Shown: piece by piece, positions 1 to 58,321 of the stretch
Layout: each line of letters begins with the position of its first letter
Position numbering within the stretch: the first letter of the stretch is position 1
NCBI RefSeq assembly: GCF_004210375.1
Contig: NC_134834.1
Coordinates: 96,724,170-96,788,169 of the forward strand
Source of the DNA: Tachypleus tridentatus
Lineage: Eukaryota > Arthropoda > Merostomata > Xiphosura > Limulidae
Direction: 5' to 3'
Length of the DNA stretch: 64,000 nt
Position numbers and translations under genes: made by a program
Notes under the pieces: generated by a model
Told to the model about the DNA's origin: nothing
The model's database searches: none
Seen by the model: the letters and a program-made list of their open reading frames with translations, nothing else

Positions 1-417
1 AGAAACAATTATCTATCTATCTGATGTTTCCGAATCGTCTATTTTAATCTTTCCTTGCTTTTGCCAGATCTTAAGTCAAAATTTATTCCATCTTGCCATC
101 ATCTTTATGGCCCACAGCTCCCTATAGCTAACAAATTAAAATATTTAGAAAGTAGCTCATAACATTGTTGAATATTTTTTACAAAAAGTGAATTTATCTT
201 CTGAAAGTATCAGTCCCTTTCTTGTAGTTTTCTCCAACTTTTGGTGGCCTCGTAGTATATATCAGAAAATGTCTACATCATACATCACTTACCATATTAT
301 AAATTTAGTAACTTTCTCTTTATTTGCAAGACACCTTTCTATCCCTTTCTACTCTGCTGAAGGTGGCTTTTTATGTTTAGAGTTGTGGCGGGTTTTGAAA
401 CAGTTCAGTGTTAAAGA
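1..417. other. Unit 1 left flank, no gene seen
   Basis: AT-rich flank between the start of the unit and the inverted-repeat arm. A 115-codon plus-strand reading frame at 188-535 runs into the antisense of the pseudogene. It is not kept open in the matching part of unit 3 (about 43040-43270), so I do not call it coding. Confidence 0.6.
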
Positions 418-1915
418 GCTGCATAATAAATATTTATACCTAATTTTCGAGAACGTCATAAAACAATTCTGGCCAAATATTAGGGATATGTGTTCCCTTT
501 TTCTTTTCATCAAATTTTGCCTTCAAACGTTTTGACTGATCTTTAGAGAAATGATCCTTCCAGTCACCAACAACTCCTTTTTGAATAAAAGTGTTCTCTT
601 TCGGCTGTGGTGCCTTTACAACTTTAACATATTCCTGAAGTAACTTTATTGCTTTATGAACACGTATATTTTGATGTTTCAGTTTTTCTTCTTTGTTTTC
701 TTTGTGACAAAACCCATTGAACTGTTCGTTGATGTGTTTTCTCATATATTCTACACTTGTTTGATATAGTATTTTCTTCAACAAATTAGCGTCATTTTCA
801 AGCATATCAAAATATTCCTGCCCTAAAAATTTGGCAATTGTTTCACTGTAACTTGATTGTCTGCTTTCATTTCTTCGTAAACAAGGAATAAAACGTTTGG
901 AAGTTTTCGATGTTCATAAAGCGAAATAATATGATCGAAGTAGTCTCCCCAGTCATTTTCTCCATTCAGAAAAATTTCAAAATATTCATCAAAAGTTCCT
1001 TCTGAGAACTGATAGTGTGGAAACGTTTTGGTATGATGATAAAATGAAAAGCAACAATTTTTTGGATTTCGAATAATTATGATGTACTTTGCTTTAGCAG
1101 AATAAAGTTTTACGTGAAATGGGAGATGAGTTTTCACAGCCCCAGGTCGAGGCATGAGTTCAATACCTTCCTTTTCAAAAAAATCTATTATAGGACAAGA
1201 AAGGTTGTATTCTTCCAGACTTGTCAGTGGTTTTCCTTTGGGCAAGATATTGTGCGCTATATTGTGTCCAAGTTGTTACAGATTTTGGAAATGTCAGTAT
1301 AATAATGTCGTCATTGGATGGCTTCTTTTAAATATTTGGGAGTAAAGACTCCGACAATTCTGACATTGTAAACATCTTGATAAGCTGGCATTTTCTAATT
1401 GTGTACATGTTGATTGAACCTTTCTTAATACAGGGTAAGGAAATAATAAGTGAAAACATTATACTGAATCAATATGGAATTTCCGCGAAAAACAGGTTTA
1501 AGTCATTCACAAGAACAGAAAATTTATTCACAAAATATTTACACTCAAATCATAAAAAAATGTGATCGATAAGAAATTTAGACAGTGAAAATTATTGTAC
1601 TAAATGGAATTGGAACACAGAAAGAGTTCTGCAACAGATTTTACACCCACGATTTTAAGAAAAGTTAGTGCTATGTAAGAAATTATTATACACGAACTTT
1701 AGTGTAACCACCATAAAATGTATGTGGATGCATACATGCAAAGCCCAGGTGAAGTCTGTTTTGTATATCGTTATAACCAGTAATATATTAAAATAAAATT
1801 TGAGTGAACGAAATAGAAGACGTTACATTTATTGTCCTTTATATTAATAAACATATGTAGCTTTAAGAAAAGTTGAATGTGGATGTCTGAGCATACATAT
1901 GATAATTAGGAACTA
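418..1915 (-). repeat. Inverted-repeat arm (left) carrying sulfotransferase pseudogene, unit 1
   Basis: The reverse complement matches 7703-9082. The match covers the whole sulfotransferase coding region, about 20 bp past the stop, and about 350 bp upstream of the presumed 3' splice site in front of the start codon. Because intron-like sequence is included, the copy arose at the DNA level and not through mRNA. Confidence 0.88.
440..1408 (-). pseudogene. Cytosolic sulfotransferase pseudogene, unit 1
   Basis: Reading on the minus strand, start-equivalent at 1408 and stop at 440, this is a near full-length copy of the plus-strand sulfotransferase of the same unit. Two long open pieces remain: 1245-823, which includes the KTHLPF catalytic-His motif and the YHH region after RNPKNCC, and 805-440, which includes RKG-type QKGVVGDWK near the C-terminus. 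It is broken by a 14-base deletion around codons 33-37, a 2-base deletion after the PAPS loop and a 1-base loss near 820. The PAPS loop reads PKSVTTW instead of PKSGTTW. One A is also missing after the start. All but the last lesion are shared with the unit 2 copy, so it died before the 21.6-kb duplication. The family transfers sulfate from PAPS to hydroxyl or amino groups of small molecules in the cytosol; this copy is unlikely to do so. Confidence 0.9.
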
Positions 1916-3758
1916 ATGGAAAGAAATGTTATATTGGATCGTTTCTTGTAAGTAGCTCAAAATTAATAAAGAGAGCTGTAGCCGAACCTTCAAGAAACTA
2001 ACTTGTTATTTTTGTCTACATACTGTATTTATTATACATATTTATGTCATAGAGATTAAGGACTACGCTTCCAATGTGTTTGTGTAAACCACATACAAAA
2101 ACTTACTTAATCGTGTGCCAATGAATTTATATCTACAATTGGGAAAATATTAAAAATGATAGCAACAGCTAGTTCAAGTGAAAACTCCCTTCATTGACAG
2201 GATAAACTTTCATGTAAATATACAAAGTTACATTACAAGTTCTGGCTACGAAAAAAAGAAGTTGAACAGAAATGAAATCATGCATTCTACTAGAAGCTTT
2301 TCAGCCATTTGGCAATGTGCCAAGAGAATGACACAGAAAAATACAGTAAGTGTAAGAGAATGCATGTTGTATTATGAAGTACTACAGTTACGAAGCAAAA
2401 TTTACTATATGGTGTCCTTGAGTTTTCTTGTGTTTTCTTTTTTTTAGCAAAGCCATATCGGGCTATCTACTTGTAGTTAAAATCTTACATCCTAAGCTGC
2501 TTAGCGTGTAGAATGAGATTCTCCTTGTTAAACAATATTCAAATTAAACAAAGATGTACGAATCTAAACTAAAGGGATAAAAGTATATAATGATTTATTG
2601 TAAATTGTTCAATTAAGAGGGTGTGTCGATACATGAAGAAAGTAAAGTGCAGATCCAAAGAGGGTGTCACTAATAAAGAATATTGTGTGTCTTAAAAATT
2701 CATAGATAAACTGAAGTCCTCAAGTTGCTCATAACAGCCGTGGAAAAAAAGGCCTTCAATCTGATGGTACCGCAAGTGCAGTTATTAAGATAAAGCGTGG
2801 TGGATTCTCAGTGATGGATCTTAACATTTCCACCTGGCTAGGAGGGTTGGGTAACGTGTAGCTCGGGAAAAACGAATTAGAATTAATATTTGACAAAATG
2901 GAAAATAGTGTACTTCTGAGGAGGATATTTGCACAGGGAGGAAAAATTTATTCTGAATATCCCCTGAATTAAACACTGTTGGTCATTATCGTGTAAATCG
3001 ATAAGCCTCGCTACTCATTGTTTTCCTCATATTTTATGTGTAAAATAAGTGTAATATCTTTGCTATCCCAACGAGTAAAGGTCATGATTGTAATCTAAAT
3101 ATATATTCCTGTTTGAACTTTGTCAAGTCATAATTATTACGTGAGCAGTTAATGCCTTGACGTATTGGACCATCATTGATTATTCAACATTAGCTGTACA
3201 AATGAACTTCTGTAAGGAAAACAATAGTTCTTTCAGCATTATAACACACCACATCATACCAGCCATTATATCTCATCAGTGTTCACAGACATATAATATT
3301 TGGATTTGCCTTGATTATCTCAGATCTGAATCTGACTGACCTTTACTGGTTAGTTTTGGAATACTTCAAAGAGTTAAAAAAAACAAAATATCTGATTACA
3401 TTTGGAGATGTTATGCAAGAGAAGTTACTGTCTGTTACACCAGGAAAGCACCAAGGTTAATAATCAAGTATCCGTTACAAAGTGTTGTCTGTAATAGATA
3501 CTAGAGGTCTACTTACGCCACATGTAACGATGTACTTGTAGCATAGCACAAAATTCTCATAATTTTGCTTTATCATAAAACATTTGAAAATACCGTGATG
3601 TCAAACTCGCGTCCCATGTTAATAAAATTCTGTTTAATAGAATAATAATTCAAGATAAAATTTGTATTTAAGTTCAAAGTTAAACTTGGTTCAGTACAAT
3701 AAAAAGAACTGGTTGCTTTACTGTTATTTTACAGACTGCAGAGACCTTTGCGAGAATG
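1916..3758. other. Intergenic, unit 1; SINE fragment only
   Basis: AT-rich, with no supported reading frame. At about 2445-2515 there is a decayed minus-strand fragment of the tRNA-like SINE family B, recognised by AGCAAAGCCATATCGGGC and the following bases. An open frame at 2178-2447 is interrupted in the unit 2 copy and is probably chance. Confidence 0.6.
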
Positions 3759-4031
3759 TTTGTTTGTTTTCGAAATTCGCGCAATGCTATACGAGGACCA
3801 GCAGCGCTAGCTCTCCCTAACGTAGGAGTGTTGACGGAAGAAATAGAGGGAATGTGGCTAGTTATCACAATCCACCTTTTGGACTACTCTTTTACCAACG
3901 AATAGTGGGGTTTCTCCCTCACATTATAACACCTCCACAACCGAAAGGGCTAGCATGTTTGGTGTGACTAGGATTTAAACTCTCGAACCTCAGATTACGT
4001 GTCGATCTACCTAACCATCTGGCCATGCCGG
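3759..4031 (-). mobile_element. SINE family A (tRNA-Thr-like head), unit 1 copy 1
   Basis: Minus-strand full-length but mutated copy. The tail (TTTGTTTGTTTTCGAAATTC in this orientation) is at the left and the tRNA-like head, ending GGCCATGCCGG, at the right. The family body words ACCAACGAATAGTGG and GGCTAGCATGTTTGGTG are present. Confidence 0.9.
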
Positions 4032-5468
4032 ATATGTTTGGTAAGGAACGAAAAAATTGAAGCGTCTCAAGCATCTTAAACGAACTTCAGCAAATAGTGA
4101 ACGTATGATGTTTTTGAAGAATGTGTAAACACCAGTTTGTACGATTGGTCTCTGCAGTACACATACGATACTGTTGACTACTATTCTGTGATGTGAGCTT
4201 CCACATCTTGGATTTTACCACACATCTATTTCAAACACCATCACAGATGGTTAATAATTAAGTTTGTAAGTGCTATATCTGTAATGTCTCTTGCCACAAC
4301 TAAAGGCACACGATCCTCTTTCACAGAGAACTTTCCAGTTGATGACTGGTCCACATATGAAAGAATGCTTAATACTCCCGCTTGCCCACAGTGAAAACTA
4401 GCTACATTTTTTCATTTCGGTAGAATTTGTTTTTTACGCATCTTGATATTTCCATTCTTTATTTTGTACCTTTTATATTGTATTGCTTGATACGTGAATT
4501 GAAAATCTTACTGTCTCGTCACCCTTCGTACAGATGGCAATGAGCCTTCTCTTCTGTGTGCCCTTTGATATCAGCATCTTACTGAATGCACACTGCTATA
4601 GATAGTGAAAACAATTAGCTTCCCTGCTGCTTTATTGTACAAAATTACCCCGATAAACGTATTATTACTTAGGAGTTGTTGTAATTCTGTATAATACCAC
4701 TCATTGCATTGGTGTTTCAATGACAGATTATCTATGATTATACTTTCAAACATATTAATATTACACATTAAGTTTTGGTGATGTTTTGGTGGTGTAAACT
4801 AAACACGATGATTTCAGTGTTGGTGTCCATACCACTTTGGAACATAGCATACAATTTCAATGACATAAATTGGAAAGCACACTTTAATATTGTAGTTAGA
4901 AATGGAACAAGATTTTCATAACACCAGGTTTAGGTTACGATGCTTGTGAGTTTGAAAATTATTCATGTTTGTATCTAGAGAAATACGATTTGAATTATGA
5001 TTATCACTTATTAAATGATGTTTAGCCAATATTTTCAAAATTATATTTATTTATCAGCATCAACAATATAGATATATATTCGATTATTACATGCACTATA
5101 CTTATTAGCTGTTAACACTTTGACAACGAAATTTGCCACACCAAAAATCTGTAAACTTTGTCTTTTTTTCAATTATGGCTGTTTTTTTTAGAAGTGAACA
5201 CTTTTATTTTCTAAGGTTTTGAACAGACTGATTGACATAAACTGTCATTTCATTTTCTTTGACTAAAATAATCAATTCTTTCGACAATATTTCAACATTA
5301 GCCAACTGATCACACTTTCAATGATATATTATAAACACTTGAAGATAATTCGCAGTTTTATGCTCTTACCCCGAATTTATTTAACATATATTACTTTTAT
5401 TTGATTATAATACCCGAGACGCACATATATTAACACCTAGAACCAGTTAACAATTTAAAACCATATAC

Positions 5469-5488
5469 ATATATATATATATATATAT
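5469..5488. repeat. (AT)n microsatellite, unit 1
   Basis: Uninterrupted AT dinucleotides followed by AAATACCTGG. The unit 2 counterpart at about 27053-27076 differs in length and lacks the AAAT step, as expected for slippage. Confidence 0.9.
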
Positions 5489-6375
5489 AAATACCTGGAA
5501 CCGGACCATACTTTAAAATTTGAACAGAAATCTCCAACTGTGAATAATATTGAGATCTCTTTATTTGCAAATGATCATTTACTTATACTTATGCTACCTC
5601 TATAAAGTACAACCTCAATAGTACACTTTATCAGGCTCACATCGGTGCCGTGAGATATTCGTGCGAAAGGTTGATACGAGACGAACAAAAGCGAGAGTCC
5701 GTCAAAGTATATTGTTATCAACTCCCTTAAGGTTAGAGGGATGTAAAATAACTCTCAAGACAGGGAGCAAAGTCTTCTATATCACTTATTTTTATTGAGA
5801 TTTCTTAAAATAATCTAATCTTTTGTGCTTATTAGAAAAATAAATACAGTGCGTCCTTTACCTAATTGATCACAAGATCACTGACGAGAGCAGGTGAAGA
5901 CGGAGTTATATTTTTACAACTAAAAGGTAATGAGCTCTTTATGTTATGATACAGTTTCTCTGTTTGTAGATCACAAAACTTAAATTATCACTAACTTAGT
6001 AATGGATTAATTTCTTCGGAAAACTTAATTTAATATTAAAGTAAAACGTGTGTCTAATAATACGATTTATTCATTAAACGTTTCACAATATTCAAATTCT
6101 CGTCTTTAGTTATCTAGGGTGTCAGAAATCTATGTGATGAGTTATAAATTTAACGACAAGACAGAAGCGGTACGCGCTAAATGTGGTGCTCGTATATGAG
6201 AGTTTTCGTCACACATCATTGGTCTCAATACATACATCTCCATGTGTTCCGTTTGTGAGCCTCAAAATAGAGAGTCAGTATTCGATTTTCATCCATTTGT
6301 TGGCCAGCTACACTGACGCTTGACATTGTGTCGATGATCCGATAACATAGTCCCCAGATTGGCTCCCTTTGTCCT

Positions 6376-7702: not shown

Positions 7703-9082
7703 GGCCTAATTATCATATGTGTGCTCAAACATCCACATTGTGTCAACTTCTTTTTAAAGCTTTATTAATATAAAGTATAAAAATTTTACGTCTTCTAGTT
7801 CGTTCACTCAAATTTTATTTTAATATATCACTGGTTATAACGATTTACCCAACAGATCTCACCTGGTCTTCGCATGTATGCATCCAAATACATTTTATGG
7901 TGGTTACAATTCCATTTAGTACAATAATTATCACTGTCGAAATTTCTTTTCTAAAAACGTGTAAACAATGTAAAAATGAAGTTTAAATATAAGTTATTGT
8001 ACAGGAACTTCATATCGGCTGATTTACATGTTCTTATTATTTTCTTACTCTGTTTATAGAAAGGTTCAATCAACATGTACACAATTAGAAAAATGCCAGC
8101 TTATCAAGATGTTAACAATGTCAGACTTGGCGGAGGCTTTACCCCCAAATTTTTAGAAGAAGCCATCCAATACGAGCCAAGAGATGACGACATCATTATT
8201 CTGACATTTCCAAAATCTGGAACAACTTGGACACAATATATTGTGCACAATATCTTGACCAAAGGAAAACCATTGACAAGTCTGAAAGAATACAACCTTC
8301 GATGTCCTATAATAGATTTTTTTTGGAAAGGAAGGTATTGAACTCATGCTTCGACCTGGGACTATCAAAACGCATCTTCCATTTCACGTAAAACCTTATT
8401 CTGCGAAAGCAAAATACATCTTAGTTATTCGAAATCAAAAGATTGTTGCGTTTCATTTTACCATCACACTAAAACGTTTCCAAACTATCAGTTCTCAGAG
8501 GGAACCTTTGATGAATATTTTGAAATTTTTCTGAATGGAGAAAATGACTGGGAGACTACTTCGATCATCTTCTTTCACTTTATGAACATCGAAACCTTCC
8601 AAACGTTTTATTCCTTGTTTACGAAGAAATGAAAGCAGATCATGAAGCTACAGTGCTAAATATTGCCAAGTTTCTAGGGCAGGAATATTTTGATATGCTT
8701 GAAAATGACGCTAACTTGTTGAAGAAAATACTATATCAGACAAGTGTAGAATACATGAGAAATCACGTCAACAAACATTTTAATGGGTTTTGTCACAAAC
8801 AAAATAAAGAAGAAAAACAAAAAGATCAAAATTTTCCTGTTCATGAAGCAATAAAGTTACTTCAGGAATATGTTGAACGTGTGAAGGCACCACAGCCGAA
8901 AGAATTCCCTTTTATTCGAAAAGGAGTTGTGGGTGACTGGAAGAATCATTTCTCTAAAGATCAGTCAAAACGTTTGAAGGCAAAATTTGATGAAAAGACA
9001 AAGGGAACAGACATCCCTAATATTTGGCCAGAATTGTTTTATGACGTTCTGGAAAATTAAGTATAAAATATTCATTATGTAG
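7703..9082 (+). repeat. Inverted-repeat arm (right) with plus-strand sulfotransferase, unit 1
   Basis: Matches the reverse complement of 418-1915. The outer limit on the left is near GGCCTAATTATCATATGTG; on the right it ends about 22 bp after the sulfotransferase stop, near ATGTAGCAG. The spacer between the arms is about 5.8 kb. Confidence 0.88.
8075..9060 (+). CDS. Cytosolic sulfotransferase (SULT family), unit 1, with three apparent frameshifts
   Basis: A single large coding exon starting MYTIRKMPAYQD, preceded by a plausible 3' splice site (TCTGTTTATAG, ending 8059) 15 bases before the ATG. Compared with unit 2, three one-base changes break the frame: a run of eight T at 8317-8324 (seven in unit 2), a missing C near 8435 in the RNPKDCC segment, and GGG at 8550-8552 where the sister copies have one base more. 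In its pieces it keeps TFPKSGTTW (5'-phosphosulfate loop), KTHLPF (catalytic His), and RKGVVGDWKNHF (3'-phosphate/PAPS motif) near the C-terminus. Without the shifts the length would be about 328 residues, normal for the family. SULTs conjugate sulfate from PAPS to phenols, steroids, amines or similar substrates; the substrate cannot be told from sequence. There are no internal stops apart from the shifts, so either sequencing error or recent loss is possible. Confidence 0.85.
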
Positions 9083-9581
9083 CAGGTTACCGTAATATTA
9101 TGGTATGCTATAATATTGAGTCTTCATTTTACAATTATCATATGATTACAAGATCTCATGAAATTTTAGTATGTCTCTGTTTTGAAAATGCTATTATTCT
9201 CGAATGTTAGATTGTGCCAATGAAATGTAACTAGGTTTAAAAGGAATCTTAATTACATATAATGCCAATTTCATATTGCTTTTTGCTAAACTGCAGCGTA
9301 GATTTTAAATTGTGAATCAAGCATACAAAAATACATATTTTTTATAAAAATAAAAAGGAGTAATTATGTTAGTATATTTTTCTTTTCTGTTGTGTGTTTT
9401 ATGTTCTTATATTTTGGTATCAATAATAGGTAGAGAGTCATGACACCACGTCGCACTGGCTTATATAACCTCTTTAAAAGAAATCCATTGTACGTGTGTG
9501 ACGTTCTGATTGAAAAATGATGAACTCACATTCAATTAAAATTCGCTAACAATAATATGACTAAGAATTTACGTAAAAAAA
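9083..9581. other. 3' flank of the sulfotransferase, unit 1
   Basis: AT-rich 3' flank. AATAAA at about 9349-9354 is a possible polyadenylation signal. Bases 9215-9345 also occur, reverse-complemented and diverged, at about 43690-43805 in unit 3. Confidence 0.5.
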
Positions 9582-9832
9582 GGGGATCGGCATGGCAAAG
9601 TGTGTTAAAGCGTTCGACACGTAATCCGAGAATCGCGGGTTCTATTCCCGATCGCACCAAACATGGTCGCTTTCCCAGCCGTGCAGGCGTTATAAAGTGA
9701 CGTTGGTAAAAGAGTGAACCAAGAGTTGGTAGTTAGGTGGTGATGACTAGCTGATTTCCCACCAGCTTCTTCAAACTGATAAATTATGGGCGGCTAGCGC
9801 AAATAGCCCTCGTGTAGCTTCGCGCGAAAATG
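9582..9832 (+). mobile_element. SINE family A, unit 1 copy 2
   Basis: The plus-strand head begins GATCGGCATGGCAAAGTG. The loop ACACGTAATCC holds a CGT anticodon-like triplet as in tRNA-Thr, and the B-box-like GGTTCTATTCC is altered. Some of the body is missing, and it ends CTTCGCGCGAAAATG. Confidence 0.9.
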
Positions 9833-16482: not shown

Positions 16483-18154
16483 GATAACAATAACCTATTT
16501 AAAGGACGAATCTAACTAGAAAATTATTACAAATAATAGTTAGTACTTGATATCTAATTGATATCAAATCCTGTAATCTTTTTACATCTTAATTTTGATA
16601 TAAATTATGCAAAATCTGGGGTAAAGTGAAAACTAATAAACTGGAAACTTTTAAATGACTAATTGTAGTTCTTCACTACTGATTATTGTACATTTTATTA
16701 TATATTGACAGGTCCATGAAATACATTAATGGTTAAAGTAAGAAGTATTTGGTCTGACATCAATTCAATTTTGTATTCTTTGTGTCTCTAATTCCTGCTT
16801 GAGTATTACAGTATAATAGGGGATCAATAGATGCCGTGTTGTGAAGATGAATCATATTTGCCTCCAGTTTAATTAAGTAATCAATGAAAGACAATATACA
16901 AAGATTTGAGCATACTGAAACACTTTATTTCACGATACGATGAAAATTAATCTGAATATTACTTTGTGAACATGTAATACTTAATTTACCTGAAATAAAA
17001 TGTTGACAACTGATCATTCTCATAAAAACATAAGAAAGTTTAAAACTTTGAGGTATTAGTTTACCTGTTATTTGAGGAAACTGTTCTGTAGGTTCTAAAA
17101 CAAATTACAGCCATATCTCTCACGAGCAGATCTAATGCCACTGCATTAAAAGAACACAGAATAAAAGTAAGTAGAATTAAATCAACAGTTTTCTTACTCA
17201 CTTACCAGATTACTATCTAGGTTCACTTAATACAGTAATAAATTAGAAGATATAAAATGCATGTTATGCTTACATACCACATTACCAACACTACGAAAGC
17301 AACTTGGTCCATCAAATGATGGGTTACAGTAGTAACATGTTGACAAGCTCATACTGAATAACCTTATTCGTTCTGGTTAGATCAAGAGTAAAATGTTGAG
17401 ACCTGATAAGTCAGGATAGTGGAAAAACTGTTTTGTCTCTTCTAAAATTATATAATGACGAGAAAGACAGAGATGCATCTCTTTAGCTATCTCCTGAAGG
17501 GAAGGTGTAAGCTAGTTGCCAAGATCCTGATAATAGCACTGTGATCAATGTAATTGTGATTCAATAACTAAGCAAGCATTTATGACGATCATTTGTTTTA
17601 AGATTAAATGACTGAAAGCATAAGACATTCTAGCTCTCTGAACTATAAAGTGGTATTTCATGGTGAAATGCTTGATTATTACAAAATGAGGATGACTTGT
17701 TATTTACAACGTTAATGGATTTGAAAAGGCACAATGAATCTTACTCTCCAAGCTGTTAAACTCAATTTTTACTGACAAACCACCTAAAGAAGATTCGATA
17801 ACAGTACTCGATCACTACACAGTTAAGATGGCTAGTATTAGTTAATGTAAAGTCTTGAATATCAACTGTTAGATTAAATGAGGATGAGTTCTAGTAATTC
17901 GATATATAGGCTGAAAGGACATTGTGACCATAAGTGTCTGAGCTATTGAATGTCTTTCTGGATCATTCACGTACAACATCAAGTGAGCTATCTCTTGGAA
18001 AAGATCACTGAAAAGTACAGTATACTATGTAAATGTGGACAATAATCCTTTCCACTGGCAAGTCAGGTGAGACCTTGAGATTACATCATCCATTGATTTT
18101 TTATTGGATTATCCTATTGTGGCAATGACCTAGGTATCACATGAGTCACAAGAA
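16483..18154. other. Intergenic, unit 1
   Basis: A 29-base segment at about 16584-16612 repeats one at 15737-15764 (ACATCTTAATTTT then ATATAAATTATGCAA). Otherwise no gene or repeat recognised; the block is kept in all three units. Confidence 0.6.
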
Positions 18155-18258
18155 TTGTTTGTTTATTTGTAAATAAGCACAAAGCCATCCAATGGCTCTG
18201 TGCTCTTGTCACCACAGGTGAGAAACCCAGTTTCTTGTGTTGCAAGTCCAAGAGGATG
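18155..18258 (-). mobile_element. SINE family C, unit 1 copy 5
   Basis: Minus strand, from TTGTTTGTTTATTTGTAAAT to TTGCAAGTCCAAGAGGATG. Homology of unit 3 to unit 1 ends inside this element. Confidence 0.8.
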
Positions 18259-21200
18259 TCCAGCCAGAATCTGAGAAGTAGTAACTGTCAGCTACAACAT
18301 AAACAGTTCTGTTCTTTTATTTCAAATACTCTTTGTTTTTATAAGAAATGCAGTATTCTAATGATGAATATATTTGCTCACCATGATCAGTTGTAAAATG
18401 AACTGAAGAGTGAATTACTTTTGGTACTGTACTTTTACACAGTTTAATAATATGGTATGTACACAAAGATGTTGATAGCCAAATTCTATGTATGCAATAG
18501 TAATAATATACAATTACACTGCAACCATGAGCAGGAATATCAACTTTTGGGTCTGCTAGAACATTGTCCTTAGATTGTCACTTCCTTTGTTCATTAATGA
18601 AAATATTGCAGAAATGTTAATATTCATTTGTAGAACCATAATATCTTTTGAAAAAGGTGTTATTTTTAGCAACAGCCTATGGATATGTTATTATCTTCCT
18701 TCTTAAAGTTTTTACTCTCAGTGTTGAACAGTAATAATATCAATTAAATAATGATACTGGCATGACAGGTGATGAAGCCATGAGTACTTTCAAGAAACTC
18801 TTGAGAAAACCTACAGATATACATTAAACTGCCTTGTTCATAACTAGACTGAAATATAAAAGTGGATAGGCAGCAAAACAAGTTTGAAGTGGAAGGGGGG
18901 TAGTGACAACTGAGGCAACTGTTTTGAGTTGTTAACCAAGACAGTTGAATTGAAAGTTGAAACAGCAGCTTTTCCTCATAAGTTTATACAATTTTCTATT
19001 TCTTACTGAAAGATCTGCATGCATATAGCTCTTTCTCTCTGTTGCCTATATAAGGTGTTCATTATATTATCAGTTCAACATGCATGTGTGAATGCTATAA
19101 GCTACATACAGGAGTGCCATTCCCACTTACTTTTTCATAACAAATATTATTTTAATGCTGAAAGCCAGTGAAGCAGTAAAAACGACATGCTTAACAGTGC
19201 TGATAAAATCTCCAGAACGGAGGAGGTTTTTTTCTCATTCTTCAAAATTACTCTATTATCAATATCAAATCAGGGGTATTTGTAAAATATCATTTTAAAC
19301 CTTTTCACAACTTGTCATAGCAAGTGAAGCTGTTTGGTTCAATATTAGAACTCATCAGGCTGAACTTGCTAACATACAAAAGTGTGAAAAATGATGTTAC
19401 ATGCAGTGCAAAACAGTTAATGTTACAGTTTTAAACATCAACACCTAGCAAAGAAATTAAAACAGTATGTCAAATAATAGTGATAAAGTTACACAGTTTA
19501 TTTCACTGTTGTTAGACTTATTAGTTTTAGCCTATTAACCTTTTCAAATTAACAGTTCAGTAAACAAAACAAAATTAATAGGAGTCAGGGCATAATTAGT
19601 TTTCACACATGACACCTTACTTTTTAAGCCAATTTAAAACTTACCTATGATTATTTATTGGAAGATTGTTCTCAAAATCCATATTTGCATAATTCTGACA
19701 AATAAATTTTGTTTTACCACTACCACTATTCAGGTCTCAGTATATTGTTGAAAATGCCATCATTATCAAAATCAGCCATAGAGTTGCTGAGTATAATTAA
19801 TGATCATAGGAGTAATATATGTGTATATATGTGACTGCCCACAGGACCAAAATCATCACATTGCATTGTTAAAACAATTATTGTTGCCAACCTGAAAGGC
19901 CTGGTTGTAACAATATTGAGGGAGTTATCATAAAAAAAAAAAGTTAAATTGCATGCAGTGAAATGGAAAGAATAAATGTTTGTTGTTGATATGGATAATT
20001 TCACTTGCATGACTTGTGTAAAAGTACTCGCCAGTGACTACAAATTCATTAAAGAATATTTGATTAATATTTGTTAAGAATGTTGTAATGCAGATAAGAC
20101 TAGAACAAAACTGAAGTGTTAAATAAAAGGCACATTTACAACTTTACTGTAATAATTACACATGACACCTCACTTTTTAAGCCAATTAAAAACTTACCTA
20201 TGATTCCTTATTGGAAGATTGTTCTCAAAATCCATATTTTATACAGTTTATTAAAGATAATATAAAAAAAATTCTCTCTGTGTTCAAAAGTGATTTCTAT
20301 AATGCTATAAATAAAATACGTATGCTTTTTATCTATATGTAATGCTGTCAAGTTTTTTTTGTTACAACTTTACTGTAATAATTAAACTGTTCATTTAATC
20401 AAATGAAACTGAAAAAAATCCACTGGTCTTCTATGTTATTAGACTTCAAAATCAGGAATGGCTCATGCAGATGGCCCTCACATAGCTTTGCACAATGAAA
20501 AACACCAGCTTGATGATCTGATGCATAGAATGTAAAAAAATGCTTACACACGTCACAAGTTTTTAATTATTATTACATGGGGCAAGTTACGTAATAGAAA
20601 AGTAAAAAAAAATACATAAATATGTAAACAATAAGTTAGTGGACATATAAATACAATTAGCACTGAATAACTCCCTACAGAACAATGTCATATTCTGATA
20701 GGCAGATTTCCAACATAAAAGTATTAAGTAAGTATAATACATAAATTATAGAAGTCTTAAGCAAAAAATAAATTCAATGTGGCAACAAATAAAAAGAAGC
20801 AAACACAACAGCCTAAAGATGACGTGGGATTTTTAAAATGCTGTAACTGGTTTCTAATTTCTAACTTTCTTCTTATGACTTCTAGCTGTTGCAGCTGGAA
20901 AATATCGAAACTACACAAGATTAAAATAAAAGTAAAAATTGTGATAATATAACTATCATTCAGAAGAACTGATCCAATTAGTTCTATGAATTGTTTAAAC
21001 ATCCTAACTCAACTATTGTCATCATATTTCCTTACTTTTTAACACTAATGTTCTAAGGAATTTTGCATCATCATTTGTGTCAAATAGCATGTGATGTCAG
21101 CTCAAACAATAAATAAACCTGAGTGACCCCATAAATAGTGAAGTAAGTTCAAATTTAGTGAAAATTAATAAAGGAAGAGAGATTTATCATGAAAGATTAT

Positions 21201-21577
21201 AATAATATATATTTTTAAATCTGAAAGTTTGAATACGATCAGATTATCCAGTTTTATGTATGGCAACATTGTATATGGATACTTTCTATCCCTACTTCAA
21301 TTTATTAAGTTTGTTTATAGCATACTTTTGTAACTTTGTTCTTTCATGGCAGGTTCTTTAACATTCTCTGGTGAAAGTAAATCATCGTAACAACAACAAA
21401 TCATTTTATTTCTTCCTTAATGATTTTACACTGTCAAATACTTGTAACTTGTATGCTAAGTGTACAAACGACACCAATATAAAATACATTTAATACGTTC
21501 AAAGTAACTGAATGTGTAATAATTCACACAGATCCAAATACCTCACTAAACACAATGGCAGGTTCATTTGACCAGCT
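18259..21577. other. Unit 1 right part and tail, no gene
   Basis: AT-rich. A direct repeat of about 80 bp occurs at 19608-19690 and 20160-20245 (CTTTTTAAGCCAATT, GGAAGATTGTTCTCAAAATC). A SINE-A tail fragment is at 20452-20505 (GCAGATGGCCCTCACATAGC). Open frames of 60-80 codons here look like chance. Confidence 0.6.
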
Positions 21578-21994: not shown

Positions 21995-23495
21995 GCTGCA
22001 TAATAAATATTTATACCTAATTTTCGAGAACGTCATAAAACAATTGTGGCCAAATATTAGGGATATGTGTTCCCTTTTTCTTTTCATCAAATTTTGCCTT
22101 CAAACGTTTTGACTGATCTTTAGAGAAATGATCCTTCCAGTCACCAACAACTCCTTTTTGAATAAAAGTGTTCTCTTTCGGCTGTGGTGCCTTCACAACT
22201 TTAACATATTCCTGAAGTAACTTTATTGCTTTATGAACACGTATATTTTGATGTTTCAGTTTTTCTTCTTTGTTTTCTTTGTGACAAAACCCATTGAACT
22301 GTTCGTTGATGTGTTTTCTCATATATTCTACACTTGTTTGATATAGTATTTTCTTCAACAAATTAGCGTCATTTTCAAGCATATCAAAATATTCCTGCCC
22401 TAAAAATTTGGCAATTGTTTCACTGTAACTTGATTGTCTGCTTTCATTTCTTCGTAAACAAGGAATAAAACGTTTGGAAGTTTTCGATGTTCATAAAGCG
22501 AAATAATATGATCGAAGTAGTCTTCCCAGTTATTTTCTCCATTCAGAAAAATTTCAAAATATTCATCAAAGGTTCCTTCTGAGAACTGATAGTGTGGAAA
22601 CGTTTTGGTATGATGATAAAATGAAAAGCAACAATTTTTTGGATTTCGAATAACTAAGATGTATTTTGCTTTCGCAGAATAAGGTTTTACGTGAAACGGG
22701 AGATGAGTTTTCACAGCCCCAGGTCGAGGCATGAGTTCAATACCTTCCTTTTCAAAAAAATCTATTATAGGACAAGAAAGGTTGTATTCTTCCAGACTTG
22801 TCAGTGGTTTTCCTTTGGGCAAGATATTGTGCGCTATATTGTATCCAAGTTGTTACAGATTTTGGAAATGTCAGTATAATAATGTCGTCATTGGATGGCT
22901 TCTTGTAAATATTTGGGAGAAAAGACTCCGACAATTCTGACATTTTTAACATTTTGATAAGCTGGCATTTTTCTAATTGTGTACATGTTGATTGAACCTT
23001 TCTTAATACAGGGTAAGAAAATAATAAGTGAAAACATTATACTGAATCAATATGGAATTTCCGCTACAAACCGACAGGTTTAAGTCATTCACAAGAACAG
23101 AAAATTTATTCACAAAATATTTACACTCAAATCATAAAAAAATGTGGTTGATAAGAAATTTAGACAGTGAAAATTATTGTACTAAATTGAATTGGAACAC
23201 AGAAAGAGTTCTGCAACAGATTTTACACCCACGATTTTAAGAAAAGTTAGTGCTATGTAAGAAATTATTATACACGAACTTTAGTGTAACCACCATAAAA
23301 TGTATGTGGATGCATACATGCGAAGCCCAGGTGAAGTCTGTTTTGTATATCGTTATAACCAGTAATATATTAAAATAAAATTTGAGTGAACGAAATAGAA
23401 GACGTTACATTTATTGTCCTTTATATTAATAAACATATGTAGCTTTAAGAAATGTTGAATGTGGATGTCTGAGCATACATATGATAATTAGGAAC
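21995..23495 (-). repeat. Inverted-repeat arm (left), unit 2
   Basis: Reverse complement of about 29286-30665. Holds the minus-strand sulfotransferase pseudogene and about 0.5 kb of its upstream intron-like flank. Confidence 0.88.
22017..22986 (-). pseudogene. Cytosolic sulfotransferase pseudogene, unit 2
   Basis: Same inherited lesions as the unit 1 pseudogene: the 14-base deletion around codons 33-37, PKSVTTW, the 2-base deletion after the PAPS loop and a 1-base loss near 22400. Unlike unit 1 it keeps the start segment MYTIRKMPAYQ in frame. Positions 22646-22690, encoding KPYSAKAKYILVIRN, are identical to the plus-strand gene and differ at about six sites from the unit 1 pseudogene, which suggests gene conversion. 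Open pieces are 22822-22400 and 22382-22017. Confidence 0.9.
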
Positions 23496-29285: not shown

Positions 29286-30665
29286 GGCCTAATTATCATA
29301 TGTGTGCTCAAACATCCACATTGTGTCAACTTCTTTTTAAAGCTTTATTAATATAAAGTATAAAAATTTTACGTCTTCTAGTTCGTTCACTCAAATTTTA
29401 TTTTAATATATCACTGGTTATAACGATTTACCCAACAGATCTCACCTGGTCTTCGCATGTATGCATCCAAATACATTTTATGGTGGTTACAATTCCATTT
29501 AGTACAATAATTATCACTGTCGAAATTTCTTATCTAAAAACGTGTAAACAATGTAAAAATGAAGTCTAAATATAAGTTATTGTACAGGAACTTTATATCG
29601 GCTGATTTACATGTTCTTATTATTTCCTTACTCTGTTTATAGAAAGGTTCAATCAACATGTACACAATTAGAAAAATGCCAGCTTATCAAGATGTTAACA
29701 ATGTCAGACTTTGCGGAGGCTTTACCCCCAAATTTTTAGAAGAAGCCATCCAATACGAGCCAAGAGATGACGACATCATTATTCTGACATTTCCAAAATC
29801 TGGAACAACTTGGACACAATATATTGTGCACAATATCTTGACCAAAGGAAAACCATTGACAAGTCTGAAAGAATACAACCTTCGATGTCCTATAATAGAT
29901 TTTTTTGGAAAGGAAGGTATTGAACTCATGCTTCGACCTGGGACTATCAAAACGCATCTTCCATTTCACGTAAAACCTTATTCTGCGAAAGCAAAATACA
30001 TCTTAGTTATTCGAAATCCAAAAGATTGTTGCGTTTCATTTTACCATCACACTAAAACGTTTCCAAACTATCAGTTCTCAGAGGGAACCTTTGATGAATA
30101 TTTTGAAATTTTTCTGAATGGAGAAAATGACTGGGAGACTACTTCGATCATCTTCTTTCACTTTATGAACATCGAAACCTTCCAAACGTTTTATTCCTTG
30201 TTTACGAAGAAATGAAAGCAGATCATGAAGCTACGGTGCTAAATATTGCCAAGTTTCTAGGGCAGGAATATTTTGATATGCTTGAAAATGACGCTAACTT
30301 GTTGAAGAAAATACTATATCAGACAAGTGTAGAATACATGAGAAATCACGTCAACAAGCATTTTAATGGGTTTTGTCACAAACAAAATAAAGAAGAAAAA
30401 CAAAAAGATCAAAATTTTCCTGTTCATGAAGCAATAAAGTTACTTCAGGAATATGTTGAACGTGTGAAGGCACCACAGCCGAAAGAATTCCCTTTTATTC
30501 GAAAAGGAGTTGTGGGTGACTGGAAGAATCATTTCTCTAAAGATCAGTCAAAACGTTTGAAGGCAAAATTTGATGAAAAGACAAAGGGAACAGATATCCC
30601 TAATATTTGGCCAGAATTGTTTTATGACGTTCTGGAAAATTAAGTATAAAATATTCATTATGTAG
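29286..30665 (+). repeat. Inverted-repeat arm (right), unit 2
   Basis: Counterpart of 7703-9082, holding the best-preserved plus-strand sulfotransferase of the array. Confidence 0.88.
29658..30643 (+). CDS. Cytosolic sulfotransferase (SULT family), unit 2, one apparent frameshift
   Basis: The exon begins at about 29643 after TCTGTTTATAG. ATG at 29658; an in-frame second Met (MPAYQD) is six codons on and could also be used. The frame is open to residue 159 (NDW). There GGG at 30133-30135 is one base short compared with the minus-strand copies, which read W-E/G-DYFDH. From there the other frame continues to the stop at 30641-30643, about 328 residues in all, normal for SULTs. Motifs: TFPKSGTTW at 44-52 (5'-phosphosulfate loop), KTHLPF with His100 (catalytic), YILVIRN then SFYHH at 114-131 with Arg119 and Ser127 spaced as in known 3'-phosphate sites, and RKGVVGDWK from about 282. 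Predicted soluble, cytosolic, PAPS-dependent. As assembled it would end after 185 codons (stop at 30213-30215) and lose the C-terminal PAPS motif. Confidence 0.9.
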
Positions 30666-34345: not shown

Positions 34346-34391
34346 CAATAGGAATCGATTATTTCTTTGCGATCAGACTTTATCACTGACA

Positions 34392-34959: not shown

Positions 34960-34976
34960 TTCCACAGAAAGTTAAA

Positions 34977-35730: not shown

Positions 35731-36603
35731 TGCATATACGAAGCATAACATTTTTGAACATCCCTTTAACCTCTGACTATCGGACAGGAATCCAATTATA
35801 AGTTTTACCTAACAGAATGCTTCCTTTAATTGTTTATGATCAACATCATATTGTAAGGGTTTTATTTTAAAACTTGGTGTGATTACCAGTTTTGCATTGA
35901 AACCGATATAACGCGCTGTGAGAATTGCAGTGGCAATTTTAAAATTTCGTCATTTTATAGCACAATGTTTCTATAGTAATGTTAACATTACTGTTGGCTA
36001 CTGTTGGCGGCCAACATGTTAACATTAAGTTCACCTGTGGACGCCAACAGTAGCATGTTCAAACTTCTTTTGACATAAACAACAACCTCATAGTGTAGGT
36101 CGTTATCATAAGCTGAACTTCACAAGAGTGTACATCCACTTTAAAAATTTCTTTCACTTCACTTCAATGAAAACTTTGTGAAATGTATCCTGTCTTGTGC
36201 ACATCGTATCGTGAGTTCCTGTGAATTCAGAATAAAATCTGTTTAAAACTTAACTCATTATCAAGAAACATTACTAAGGTGGTGATGTCATAAATTTTGA
36301 ATAAAATACTAAACACCATAATCAAAGTTTTTTCCACAAGTTCACTACCAGTGTGTGTTCAGGCCTTTCTTGAGAATTCAGACCTTCTTAAAGGTCACGT
36401 GCTATCTACGAATCCTACTGACCATCACGAGAGGACGCTTTTGCCAGATTGACTGTCAGAAAAATGGAAGAACGCTTAAATTAAAGGAACGTTCTATTCT
36501 TAAGTTCAAGGACTGAGAAACAGTTTTAATCTTCAGTGTATTCAAAGTAATCGATAAAGTCGAAAACGAGATTATTCTACGCGTGCATATCTTTCAAATG
36601 AAA
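35731..36603. other. Intergenic, unit 2, with short inverted repeat
   Basis: Contains the counterpart of the 14419-14476 inverted repeat at about 35997-36054. No gene. Confidence 0.6.
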
Positions 36604-36720
36604 TGCCCACTCCCCCTAGAGACTGACTTAAAACCCTAGAAACCGAGTTTTGATATCAGTGGTTGGCAGAGCACAGATAGCCCAATGTGTAGTTCTGTGC
36701 TTAACTTGAAACAAACAAAT
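36604..36720 (+). mobile_element. SINE family C, unit 2 copy 3
   Basis: Orthologous to 15027-15140. Confidence 0.8.
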
Positions 36721-36785
36721 TCAAATAAAACCTGAATTAAATAATTTTGCAAATAGCGACTGAATGAACGCTCGCAATTTAGTTA

Positions 36786-37047
36786 GGTTTGTTTCGAAAT
36801 TCGCGCAAAGCTACATGAGAGCTGTCTGTGCCAGTAATCCTTAATTGAGCGGTAAAAGACTCGAGGGAGGGTAGTTAGTCATCATCATCCATCGCCAACT
36901 CTTGGGCTACTCTTTTACCAACGAATAGTGGGACCGACCGACATTTAAAACGCCCTACGGCTGAAATGGCAAGCATGATTGTTGTGAAGAGAATTCGAAC
37001 CTGCGACACTTAAATTGCGAGTAGAATTTCCTTACCAGTTGGCCTGA
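36786..37047 (-). mobile_element. SINE family A, unit 2 copy 8
   Basis: Orthologous to 15205-15466. Confidence 0.88.
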
Positions 37048-37146
37048 AACTTCCACACTAAACTATGTAATTTAAATAAAAAGAAAGCGTTTCAAACATT
37101 TGCGTCAGCTATATAATAATGTATTAAAGAAACTAAATAATGTGCG

Positions 37147-37269
37147 TGTGTGTGTTTTCTTATAGTAAGGCCTCATCGGGCTAGCTGCTAAGCACACCAA
37201 GGGGAATCGAACCCCTTGATTTTAGCGTTGTAAATCCATAGATTTACCGCTGTACTAGCGAGGGCACTA
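37147..37269 (-). mobile_element. SINE family B, unit 2
   Basis: Orthologous to 15567-15688. Confidence 0.88.
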
Positions 37270-37666
37270 ATTTGAGTAAGGCATGTTATATTTTTGAAAA
37301 CTGGTCATTTTCTACTACATCTTAATTTTAATATAAATTATGCAAGTGTCAAGAAAATGACCAAATTCCATATCTTTATTCAAAATACGTTTAGTAAATG
37401 GTTTTGATTATAAAACGGTTGTTTTTTTCTATTGAAAATCAATTTGAATAAGTTGCACATAATATTCTTATTTTTACGCTAATTATTATCTCAAAGCTTT
37501 AGGTGCTGGAATAAGATATGTTTGTTTGTTTTTGAATGTCGCACAAAGCTGCACAATGAATTAATAATATTTAAATTACTAAAAATAGTGTTTTGTATAA
37601 ACACTCGTTCTATTGCGAATAAAAAATATTAAGCATACCTTTCATGATAAATGCTCTTTTGTTGTA

Positions 37667-37901
37667 AGGCCCAACGTGGCCCAGTGGATCCAAGATTCCA
37701 TGATTCGTGCTTCACACTTTTGGGCTGTGAGTGAATTATGAAAATTGTGATCAAATCCCACTATCCCATTACAGTCACCTACGAATAGGCGGTAGGTAGC
37801 GCACAGTAGTTGTCTTCCCTCTCGTCTTTCACTTTTATATTAGGTTCGTACAGGTCAGTTATCCCCTGAATTGCTCAAAAAGAAATTCAAACAAAACAAA
37901 C
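37667..37901 (+). mobile_element. Old, diverged SINE related to family A, unit 2
   Basis: Orthologous to 16087-16323, but with a cluster of differences from unit 1 at about 37755-37812 where it agrees with unit 3 at several sites. Confidence 0.75.
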
Positions 37902-37948
37902 CTCAGTTTTAACTTAATATACATTGGTTATCTGGCCCACAACTAAAT

Positions 37949-38062
37949 TAAGGCCAGGGAGATAGCGACAGATTTCCAGACTTTACGATGTTGGGGTTCA
38001 ATTTTCCGCAGTGGGCAAAGTGCAGATAACACATTGTGCAGCTTAGCACTAAAAGACACCGA
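37949..38062 (+). mobile_element. SINE family C, unit 2 copy 4
   Basis: Orthologous to 16371-16482. Confidence 0.78.
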
Positions 38063-39731
38063 TAACAATAACCTATTTAAAGGACGAATCTAACTAGAAA
38101 ATTATTACAAATAATAGTTAGTACTTGATATCTAATTGATATCAAATCCTGTAATCTTTTTACATCTTAATTTTGATATAAATTATGCAAAATCTGGGGT
38201 AAAGTGAAAACTAATAAACTGGAAACTTTTAAATGACTAATTGTAGTTCTTCACTACTGATTATTGTACATTTTATTATATATTGACAGGTCCATGAAAT
38301 ACATTAATGGTTAAAGTAAGAAGTATTTGGTCTGACATCAATTCAATTTTGTATTCTTTGTGTCTCTAATTCCTGCTTGAGTATTACAGTATAATAGGGG
38401 ATCAATAGATGCCGTGTTGTGAAGATGAATCATATTTGCCTCCAGTTTAATTAAGTAATCAACGAAAGACAATATACAAAGATTTGAGCATACTGAAACA
38501 CTTTATTTCACGATACGATGAAAATTAATCTGAATATTACTTTGTGAACATGTAATACTTAATTTACCTGAAATAAAATGTTGACAACTGATCATTCTCA
38601 TAAAACATAAGAAAGTTTAAAACTTTGAGGTATTAGTTTACCTGTTATTTGAGGAAACTGTTCTGTAGGTTCTAAAACAAATTACAGCCATATCTCTCAC
38701 GAGCAGATCTAATGCCACTGCATTAAAAGAACACAGAATAAAAGTAAGTAGAATTAAATCAACAGTTTTCTTACTCACTTACCAGATTACTATCTAGGTT
38801 CACTTAATACAGTAATAAATTAGAAGATATAAAATGCATGTTATGCTTACATACCACATTACCAACACTATGAAAGCAACTTGGTCCATCAAATGATGGG
38901 TTACAGTAGTAACATGTTGACAAGCTCATACTGAATAACCTTATTCGTTCTGGTTAGATCAAGAGTAAAATGTTGAGACCTGATAAGTCAGGATAGTGGA
39001 AAAACTGTTTTGTCTCTTCTAAAATTATATAATGACGAGAAAGACAGAGACGCATCTCTTTAGCTATCTCCTGAAGGGAAGGTGTAAGCTAGTTGCCAAG
39101 ATCCTGATAATAGCACTGTGATCAATGTAATTGTGATTCAATAACTAAGCAAGCATTTATGACGATCATTTGTTTTAAGATTAAATGACTGAAAGCATAA
39201 GACATTCCTAGCTCTCTGAACTATAAAGTGGTATTTCATGGTGAAATGCTTGCTTATTACAAAATGAGGATGACTTGTTATTTACAACGTTAATGGATTT
39301 GAAAAGGCACAATGAATCTTACTCTCCAAGCTGTTAAACTCAATTTTTACTGACAAACCACCTAAAGAAGATTCGATAACAGTACTCGATTACTACACAG
39401 TTAAGATGGCTAGTATTAGTTAATGTAAAGTCTTGAATATCAACTGTTAGATTAAATGAGGATGAGTTCTAGTAATTCGATAAATAGGCTGAAAGGACAT
39501 TGTGACCATAAGTGTCTGAGCTACTGAATGAGTTTCTGGATCATTCACGTACGACATCAAGTAAGCTATCTCTTGGAAAAGATCACTGAAAAGTACAGTA
39601 TACTATGTAAATGTGGACAATAATCCTTTCCACTGGCAAGTCAGGTGAGACCTTGAGATTACATCATCCATTGATTTTTTATTGGATTATCCTATTGTGG
39701 CAATGACCTAGGTATCACATGAGTCACAAGA
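38063..39731. other. Intergenic, unit 2
   Basis: Counterpart of 16483-18154. No gene. Confidence 0.6.
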
Positions 39732-39836
39732 ATTGTTTGTTTATTTGTAAATAAGCACAAAGCCATCCAATGGCTCTGTGCTCTTGTCACCACAGGTGAG
39801 AAACCCAGTTTCTTGTGTTGCAAGTCCAAGAGGATG
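39732..39836 (-). mobile_element. SINE family C, unit 2 copy 5
   Basis: Orthologous to 18155-18258. Confidence 0.8.
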
Positions 39837-42829
39837 TCCAGCCAGAATCTGAGAAGTAGTAACTGTCAGCTACAACATAAACAGTTCTGTTCTTTTATTT
39901 CAAATACTCTTTGTTTTTATAAGAAATGCAGTATTCTAATGATGAATATATTTGCTCACCATGATCAGTTGTAAAATGAACTGAAGAGTGAATTACTTTT
40001 GGTACTGTACTTTTACACAGTTTAATAATATGGTATGTACACAAAGATGTTGATCGCCAAATTCTATGTATACAATAGTAATAATATACAATTACACTTC
40101 AACCATGAGCAGGAATATCAACTTTTGGAGTCTGCTAGAACATTGTCCTTAGATTGTCACTTCCTTTGTTCATTAATGAAAATATTGCAGAAATGTTAAT
40201 ATTCATTTGTAGAACCATAATATCTTTTGAAAAATGTGTTATTTTTAGCAACAGCCTATGGATATGTTATTATCTTCCTTCTTAAAGTTTTTACTCTCAG
40301 TGTTGAACAGTAATAATATCAATTAAATAATGATACTGGCATGACAGGTGATGAAGCCATGAGTACTTTCAAGAAACTCTTGAGAAAACCTACAGATATA
40401 CATTAAACTGCCTTGTTCATAACTAGACTGAAATATAAAAGTGGATAGGCAGCAAAACAAGTTTGAAGTGGAAGGGGGTAGTGACAACTGAGGCAACTGT
40501 TTTGAGTTGTTAACCATGACAGTTGAATTGAAGTTGAAACAGCAGCTTTTCCTCATAAGTTTATACAATTTTCTATTTCTTACTGAAAGATCTGCATGCA
40601 TATAGCTCTTTCTCTCTGTTGCCTATATAAGGTGTTCATTATATTATCAGTTCAACATGCATGTGTGAATGCTATAAGCTACATACAGGAGTGCCATTCC
40701 CACTTACTTTTTCATAACAAATATTATTTTAATGCTGAAAGCCAGTGAAGCAGTAAAAACGACATGCTTAACAGTGTTGATAAAATCTCCAGAACGGAGG
40801 AGGTTTTTTTCTCATTCTTCAAAATTACTCTATTATCAATATCAAATCAGGGGTATTTGTAAAATATCATTTTAAACCTTTTTCACAACTTGTCATAGCA
40901 AGTGAAGCTGTTTGGTTCAATATTAGAACTCATCAGGCTGAACTTGCTAACATACAAAGGTGTGAAAAATGATGTTACATGCAGTGCAAAACAGTTAATG
41001 TTACAGTTTTAAACATCAACACCTAGCAAAGAAATTAAAACAGTATGTCAAATAATAGTGATAAAGTTACACAGTTTATTTCACTGTTGTTAGACTTATT
41101 AGTTTTAGCCTATTAACCTTTTCAAATTAACAGTTCAGTAAACAAAACAAAATTAATAGGAGTCAGGGCATAATTAGTTTTCACACATGACACCTTACTT
41201 TTTAAGCCAATTTAAAACTTACCTATGATTATTTATTGGAAGATTGTTCTCAAAATCCATATTTGCATAATTCTGACAAATAAATTTTGTTTTACCACTA
41301 CCACTATTCAGGTCTCAGTATATTGTTGAAAATGCCATCATTATCAAAATCAGCCATAGAGTTGCTGAGTATAATTAATGATCATAGGAGTAATATATGT
41401 GTATATATGTGACTGCCCACAGGACCAAAATCATCACATTGCATTGTTAAAACAATTATTGTTGCCAACCTGAAAGGCCTGGTTGTAACAATATTGAGGG
41501 AGTTATCATAAAAAAAAAAGTTAAATTGCATGCAGTGAAATGGAAAGAATAAATGTTTGTTGTTGATATGGATAATTTCACTTGCATGACTTGTGTAAAA
41601 GTACTCGCCAGTGACTACAAATTCATTAGAGGATATTTCATTAATATTTTTTAAGAATGTTGTAATGCAGATTAGACTGGAACAAAGCTGAAGTGTTAAT
41701 AAAAGACACATTTACAACTTTACTGTAATATTTACAAATGACACCTTACTTTTTAAGCCAATTAAAATTTTGCCTATGATTTCTTACTGGAAGATTGTTC
41801 TCAAAATCCATATTTTACACAGTTTATTAAAGATATTATAAAAATAATTCTTTCTGTATTGAAAAGTGATTTCTATAATGCTATGAATAAAGTACGTATG
41901 ATTTTTATCTTTATGTAGTGCTGTCAAATTGTGTTGTTAAAACTTTACTGTGGTAATTAAACTGTTCATTTTGAAAAATTGTTGAATAACCTTGATGAAA
42001 GTCTGGCATATTAGATAAATTCCTCAAAGGAAAATCGAATAAAATTGAAAAAAATTCCATGAGTCTTCCATGTAATTACACTTCAAAATCAGGAATGGCT
42101 CTTCTAATTTCTAACATTCTTCTTGTGACTTCTAGCTGTTGCAGCTCGAAAAAAATCGTTTCTACACAAGATTAAAATAAAAGCAAAAATTGTGATAATA
42201 TCACTATCATTCAGAAGAACTGATCCAATTAGTTCTTTGAATTGTTTAAACATCCTAACTCAACTATTGTCATCATATTTCCTTACTGCTTAACATTAAT
42301 GTTCTAAGGAATTTTGCATCCTCATTTGTGTCAAATAGCATGTGAAGTTAGCTAAAAGAAGAAATAAAACTGAGTGACCCCATAAATGTTGAAGCGAGTT
42401 CAAATAAAGTGACAATTAATAAAGGAAGAGAGATTTATTTTGAAAGATTATAATAATATATTTTTTTTTAATCTGAAAGTTTGAATTAGATCAGATTATC
42501 CAGTTTTATGTATGGCAACATTGTATATGTATACTTTCTATTCCTACTTCAATTTATTAAGTTTGTTTATTGCATACTTTTGTAACTTTGTTCTTTCATG
42601 GCAGGTTCTTTCACATTCTCTGGTGAAAATAAATCATATAATCGTAACAACAACAAATTTATTTATTTCTTCCTTAATGATTTTGGACTGTTAAATACTT
42701 GTAACTTTTTTATCCTAAGTGCGCAAACGACACCAATAGAAAATACATTAAATAGTACAAAGTAACCGTGTAATAATTAACACAGATCCAAATACCTCAC
42801 TACATACAATGGCTGGTTCACCAAGCTAG
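39837..42829. other. Unit 2 right part and tail, no gene
   Basis: Like 18259-20050 up to about 41628, then a clearly more diverged tail. The direct repeat of about 80 bp recurs at about 41185-41270 and 41739-41820. No coding evidence in frames such as 40323-40601 or 41382-41711. Confidence 0.6.
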
Positions 42830-58315: not shown

Positions 58316-58321
58316 TGTCTC

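Follow-up and report, generated by a model that had tools for sequence, protein, structure and literature searches.

A probably misplaced alternate-haplotype contig with a tandem sulfotransferase unit in the genome assembly of the horseshoe crab Tachypleus tridentatus

A 64,000-nucleotide stretch of the Tachypleus tridentatus genome (scaffold NC_134834.1, hereafter C10, positions 96,724,170–96,788,169; "the window") contains two near-identical copies of a 21.6-kb unit in tandem, both with sulfotransferase sequence. Is this a new gene cluster, or a second haplotype that the assembly has put in the wrong place? We consider it probable (roughly 0.6) that window bases 1–56,188, together with 75 bases upstream, are a misplaced alternate-haplotype contig of a sulfotransferase array near 91.65 Mb on the same scaffold, with two tandem units where the array has one. 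The genome searched comprised 2,167,478,450 bases in 205 contigs. It was taken to be the chromosome-level T. tridentatus assembly, built from long Nanopore reads and with a contig N50 of 1.7 Mb, that is described in the available text of PMC7210998. The coagulin family, which is not known outside horseshoe crabs, had 19 matches in it (best 100.2 bits) and none in 14 control genomes. Spidroin_N, searched for on the initial guess of a spider, had no match in it; its 14 controls had none either, which makes this negative weak. Genome similarity searches scored the best candidates, and results from them are among the matches listed. Coordinates of the array, the contig and its neighbours are given on C10; other positions are window coordinates, with bases below 1 lying upstream of the window.

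Both copies are located on one short contig of 56,263 bp (C10:96,724,095–96,780,357), which fills the window from its first base to 56,188. The contig has a 500-N gap at either end, and no sequence links it to its neighbours. The upstream gap (C10:96,723,595–96,724,094) ends 75 bases ahead of window base 1, and the downstream gap is at 56,189–56,688 (C10:96,780,358–96,780,857). Three listed open reading frames (ORFs; 56,084–56,776, 56,155–56,697 and 56,168–56,701) span the downstream gap and are artefacts.

The contig matched the array from gap to gap. Bases −74 to 56,187 aligned with C10:91,645,064–91,683,715 in inverted orientation at 98.96–99.24% identity, and the final base of the contig alone was unmatched. 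Window −74 to 20,396 aligned with array positions 91,679,748–91,659,286 at 99.24%, and window 17,532–56,187 aligned with 91,683,715–91,645,064 at 98.96%, both inverted. Copies 1 and 2 mapped to one and the same array unit. The array is N-free over 91.64–91.76 Mb, and further tandem units, 91–97% alike, are found elsewhere in it. Mismatches between contig and array ranged by segment from 0.11 to 1.16%, about the level of heterozygosity.

The repeat itself is real in the sequence, and the similarity of copies 1 and 2 is far above chance. Self-alignment of window 1–20,396 with 21,578–41,971 gave 98.957% identity, with 159 mismatches and 47 gap openings. When the flanks were added (−74 to 20,396 against 21,503–41,971), the identity was 98.951%, with 161 mismatches. 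In a three-way MAFFT alignment, the copies had 162 mismatches over 20,443 aligned positions (0.79%); of the 45 indel events between them, 39 were of 1 bp. The initial annotation had described two collinear copies of more than 20 kb with no gap at their junction, and this was borne out by the 98.95% identity and the N-free junction. Its 21.6-kb head-to-tail duplication was correct as a period (21,577) and overstated as a length, as the near-identical part is 20.47 kb and 1.1 kb lies between the copies. The limits it gave, 41,628 and 42,829, need revision, since near-identity stops at 41,971.

On the plus strand, copy 1 occupies 1–20,396, starting at −74, and copy 2 occupies 21,503–41,971. The 1.1-kb spacer separating them (20,397–21,502, plus strand) matched array positions 91,679,749–91,680,851; the two differ there by 10 mismatches and 3 gap columns out of 1,106. 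The downstream flank (41,972–56,188, plus strand) includes an older, diverged unit, recognised from comparisons with the array and with both copies; its blocks, from 42,102 to 54,013, are 84–89% identical to copies 1 and 2. A query of 1,501 bases centred on the 21,577/21,578 junction had a full-length 99% match in the 91.65-Mb array. Because the same junction is present there, reads spanning 21,577/21,578 are non-diagnostic.

The single array unit was a mosaic of the two copies. The comparison used the 162 sites at which copies 1 and 2 differ, excluding sites gapped in any of the three rows. The array unit was copy-1-like at 74 of 75 sites up to 8,130 (copy-1 coordinates) and copy-2-like at 72 of 78 sites from 9,701 onward. 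The changeover zone between them (8,130–9,700, plus strand) contained nine sites, three copy-1-like and six copy-2-like. The best single switch, between 8,129 and 8,652, left 10 exceptions, versus at least 54 in 10,000 shuffles. The left part of the array unit differed from copy 1 at 12 of 8,197 positions (0.146%) with 19 indels, and the right part differed from copy 2 at 12 of 10,670 positions (0.112%) with 28 indels. A mosaic single unit is the remnant expected from a later unequal exchange between copies 1 and 2.

These values also bear on the age of the pair, which the initial annotation had taken, if real, for a very recent expansion. The copies differ from each other by 0.79%, versus 0.11–0.15% between the halves of the array unit and their matching copies, and we rejected a very recent duplication. 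The copy divergence is close to the heterozygosity of the relative Carcinoscorpius rotundicauda, which the available text of PMC7210998 puts at 0.8%. A value near heterozygosity would also be expected if two alleles had been joined in series.

The tail of copy 1 was hybrid. The array unit is flanked by 2.9-kb direct repeats (91,659,286–91,662,145 and 91,680,852–91,683,715) that are 96.9% alike. Informative-site counts indicated that the copy 1 tail (17,532–20,396, plus strand) begins as the downstream-repeat type and ends as the upstream-repeat type. In 17,750–18,749, 19 of 27 sites were of downstream type, and in 20,000–20,396, 34 of 39 were of upstream type, with the change between about 18.75 and 20.0 kb. 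The copy 2 tail was of downstream type in both intervals (26 of 27 sites in the first and 32 of 39 in the second). The counts omit bins 17,250 and 17,500 (65 sites, 62 of downstream type), where upstream-repeat homology begins only near 17,532, and two lone sites in 18,750–19,999, one of each type. Unequal crossing-over between the flanking repeats would be expected to leave just such a hybrid, first of downstream type and then of upstream type.

On this view, the main copy of the sulfotransferase tandem array is located at about C10:91.645–91.734 Mb, the contig would represent its alternate haplotype, and scaffolding would have set the contig 5 Mb off, next to other such contigs. The alternate haplotype would carry the 21.6-kb unit twice in tandem, and the main assembly would carry it once. 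Most likely, the extra unit arose by unequal crossing-over between the 2.9-kb direct repeats flanking the unit, and a later exchange, also unequal and located at about 8.1–9.7 kb, in or beside the sulfotransferase gene, reduced the two-unit form to one unit. Allelism within one animal, the existence of both unit numbers in its DNA and this order of events are what we infer. One haplotype probably does carry the tandem pair. A two-unit allele was preferred because its placement is the sole error required and because other tandem units occur in the gap-free array. That the animal is heterozygous for the unit number, with two 21.6-kb units against a single unit produced by an unequal exchange that left a chimeric gene, is a tentative proposal to which we give slightly less than an even chance.

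A collapse of the array, or two alleles joined in series, would also account for the mosaic and the hybrid tail. In the first case, the two-unit contig would be right, no one-unit allele would exist, and the assembler would have jumped from copy 1 to copy 2 when building the 91.65-Mb array. Two 20.5-kb stretches at 99% identity are easily mistaken for each other, and the result would be an array unit that is a copy-1/copy-2 mosaic. The small distance of the array unit from its matching copies, with indels at least as numerous as mismatches (12 mismatches to 19 indels, and 12 to 28), also resembles the consensus errors of noisy reads. The two halves of low divergence contain 19 and 24 one-base indels, and the two of high divergence 11 and 25. 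These indels do not track divergence, the pattern expected if they are mostly consensus errors. The downstream flank is difficult for a collapse. It differed from the array at 6 of 3,996 positions (0.150%) up to 45,971 and at 118 of 10,192 positions (1.158%) past it, and this second value requires another haplotype to enter the array there. We regard a collapse as unlikely.

In the second case, the contig would be misassembled. Copies 1 and 2 would be two alleles of one unit joined serially via the 2.9-kb repeats, and the array would be a pseudo-haplotype with phase changes near 8.1–9.7 kb and near 46 kb. The divergence of the copies, so close to the heterozygosity of the relative, agrees with this, and a phase change together with a misjoin would yield both the mosaic and the hybrid tail. 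However, the assembler would have had to join the alleles via a stretch no longer than about 2.9 kb and 97% identical, where longer correct overlaps would be expected, and two phase changes would also be required. We regard such a misjoin as quite unlikely. Two haplotypes placed in series, as raised in the initial annotation, seem to describe mainly the whole 56-kb contig relative to the 91.65-Mb array, and not so much copy 1 relative to copy 2.

The neighbouring contigs were compared with the genome in the same way. Pieces of 2.1 kb and 9 kb from the left neighbour (C10:96,684,170–96,723,594) matched at 99%, inverted, at 66.438–66.440 and 66.487–66.496 Mb. Judged by coordinates, a stretch of 46.2 kb at the 66.4-Mb locus is represented by 18.3 kb in the left contig. 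The 27.9-kb difference equals the spacing of the two copies at 66.4 Mb to which the 9-kb piece aligned at 99 and 95%. The left contig seems to be one 27.9-kb unit short of its main locus, and the window contig one unit over. This apparent deficit suggests that haplotypes often differ in unit number in the tandem arrays of horseshoe crabs, and such differences would block the merging of contigs. The left contig also contains a 464-amino-acid (aa) frame on the minus strand (window −35,656 to −34,262; C10:96,688,514–96,689,908) that by eye has the look of a seven-helix receptor.

The right neighbour starts in the window at 56,689–64,000 and continues to at least 96,827,169. It holds another tandem array, which resembles 87.60–87.65 Mb and several places at 96.8–96.97 Mb. 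Its 2-kb and 9-kb pieces matched 87.60–87.64 Mb, inverted, at 96–98% and, in pieces, at 98–100%, respectively. A frame at window coordinates 68,126–68,938 in this contig was labelled reverse-transcriptase-like from its appearance only. As a control, a 9-kb stretch adjoining the 91.65-Mb array was searched. It had no match of at least 300 bases above 75% among the matches listed, and its best other match was 66% across about 2.9 kb.

Since three adjacent contigs resemble three separate loci on C10, each one inverted, misplaced alternate-haplotype contigs were preferred. On these similarities they would fit better than three segmental duplications. A genuine second locus, that is, a 56-kb inverted segmental duplication truly located at 96.72 Mb, would agree with the scaffold, which places the contig there, and with the divergence of contig and array, which reaches 1.158% in one part of the flank. 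Against it, homology to the array extends across the contig from one gap to the other, and both neighbouring contigs resemble other loci in a similar pattern. We consider a second locus highly improbable.

Several points weigh against a misplaced alternate haplotype with an additional unit. Within 8,131–9,700, the array unit was near neither copy (12 of 1,569 positions differed from copy 1 and 9 of 1,570 from copy 2), and so the exchange is not one clean switch. In the copy 1 tail, 8 of 27 sites ahead of the change were off-type. The right neighbour was, over its initial 2 kb, closer to 96.88 and 96.95 Mb (99%) than to 87.6 Mb (96–98%). The locus of the right neighbour's 9-kb query was itself absent among the matches listed, indicating that these are incomplete. 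The control was a single stretch (n = 1), which is few, and for it too only the best candidates were scored. Finally, the k-mer estimate of the genome size in the available text of PMC7011531 is 2.22 Gb versus the 2.17-Gb assembly, with no sign of overall inflation. Inflation of the assembly as a whole by retained haplotypes was dropped as support, given that assemblies of the species span 1.72–2.17 Gb.

What does the repeated unit encode? A sulfotransferase gene with a single exon is present once per unit, together with a relic in inverted orientation that is 88–90% like that gene. The copy 1 gene (8,075–9,060, plus strand), located by alignment with the array gene and by pieces of the PF00685 domain, is broken by three 1-bp indels when compared with the array's intact gene. 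The copy 2 gene (29,658–30,643, plus strand), located by the same alignment and the ORF list, has one 1-bp indel, which is common to copy 1. The gene of the older unit (46,990–47,946, plus strand) is of a second type and has two 1-bp indels relative to its intact copy in the array. The degenerate relics are on the minus strand at 441–1,408 in copy 1 and 22,018–22,986 in copy 2, with 89.8 and 89.9% identity to the array gene, respectively. No intact sulfotransferase reading frame was present in copy 1 or copy 2. The "entire sulfotransferase locus" that the initial annotation assigned to the duplication is, per copy, one indel-broken stretch of gene length and one inverted relic.

All three contig genes were frameshifted. 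Five of the six 1-bp indels were within runs of at least three identical bases, and the array gene at 91,702,428 likewise carries indels at single-base runs. Sequencing error is a likelier cause of the frameshifts than real breakage.

Among the array frames of at least 170 aa, five were sulfotransferase frames, and three of these were full length (328, 328 and 318 aa). The 328-aa frame of the mosaic unit scored 178.6 bits against PF00685 and the 318-aa frame scored 198.5 bits (cut-off 22). From these domain matches, the 328- and 318-aa proteins would belong to the cytosolic sulfotransferase family. A difference is that each is encoded in one intronless open frame. The nearest solved chains to the 328-aa protein were 8xgz ('S4 | Sulfotransferase') and SULT1C2. 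Since the switch zone of the mosaic overlaps the gene at 8,075–9,060, the intact 328-aa gene of the array may be a chimera of copies 1 and 2.

Genome-wide, 147 sulfotransferase-domain matches were found. Many were clustered, and many were full domains in one open frame. Examples of clusters are C5:44.07–44.47, C5:16.65–16.70, C2:8.61–8.78 and C1:92.70–92.98 Mb. Some of the 147 matches may likewise be duplicates due to misplaced contigs.

The unit number of tandem gene arrays varies through unequal crossing-over. The flanking direct repeats, the hybrid tail of copy 1 and the mosaic single unit of the array are in line with such variation; a difference is that the present case is known from one assembly only. 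Retained haplotypes have been described as heterotype (haplotype) false duplications (available text of PMC8081667). The window is similar, in that a contig from a diverged haplotype in the main assembly would mimic a gene-cluster duplication, and it differs in that the contig and the main locus also have different numbers of tandem units. Tandem gene clusters in horseshoe crabs have been described as well. The recent tandem copies here come from the same animal group, whereas sulfotransferases have no occurrence in the available text of that work (PMC7210998). Among the literature on horseshoe-crab or Tachypleus sulfotransferases, we found no paper on the sulfotransferase array by listings, whose coverage mostly lies outside subscription journals, and no paper on structural heterozygosity of tandem arrays was on point, judged by title. 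The case would be a fresh instance of two known kinds, the haplotype false duplication and the tandem gene array.

The contig should probably not be counted as a new gene cluster, as it is likely the second parental copy of an array 5 Mb off. The two parental chromosomes may differ by one repeat unit. In gene counts based on this assembly, the sulfotransferase array is probably included twice, as other tandem families may be. Should the difference in unit number be true, one animal would show both the gain of a gene-bearing unit, through the flanking repeats, and its loss, through an exchange inside the unit.

Mitochondrial sequence was also found in the assembly. The 15,008-base C205 bears mitochondrial COX1. 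COX1-like, stop-containing sequences at C9:118,898,281–118,899,402 and C13:169,799,699–169,800,061 are probably nuclear copies of mitochondrial DNA.

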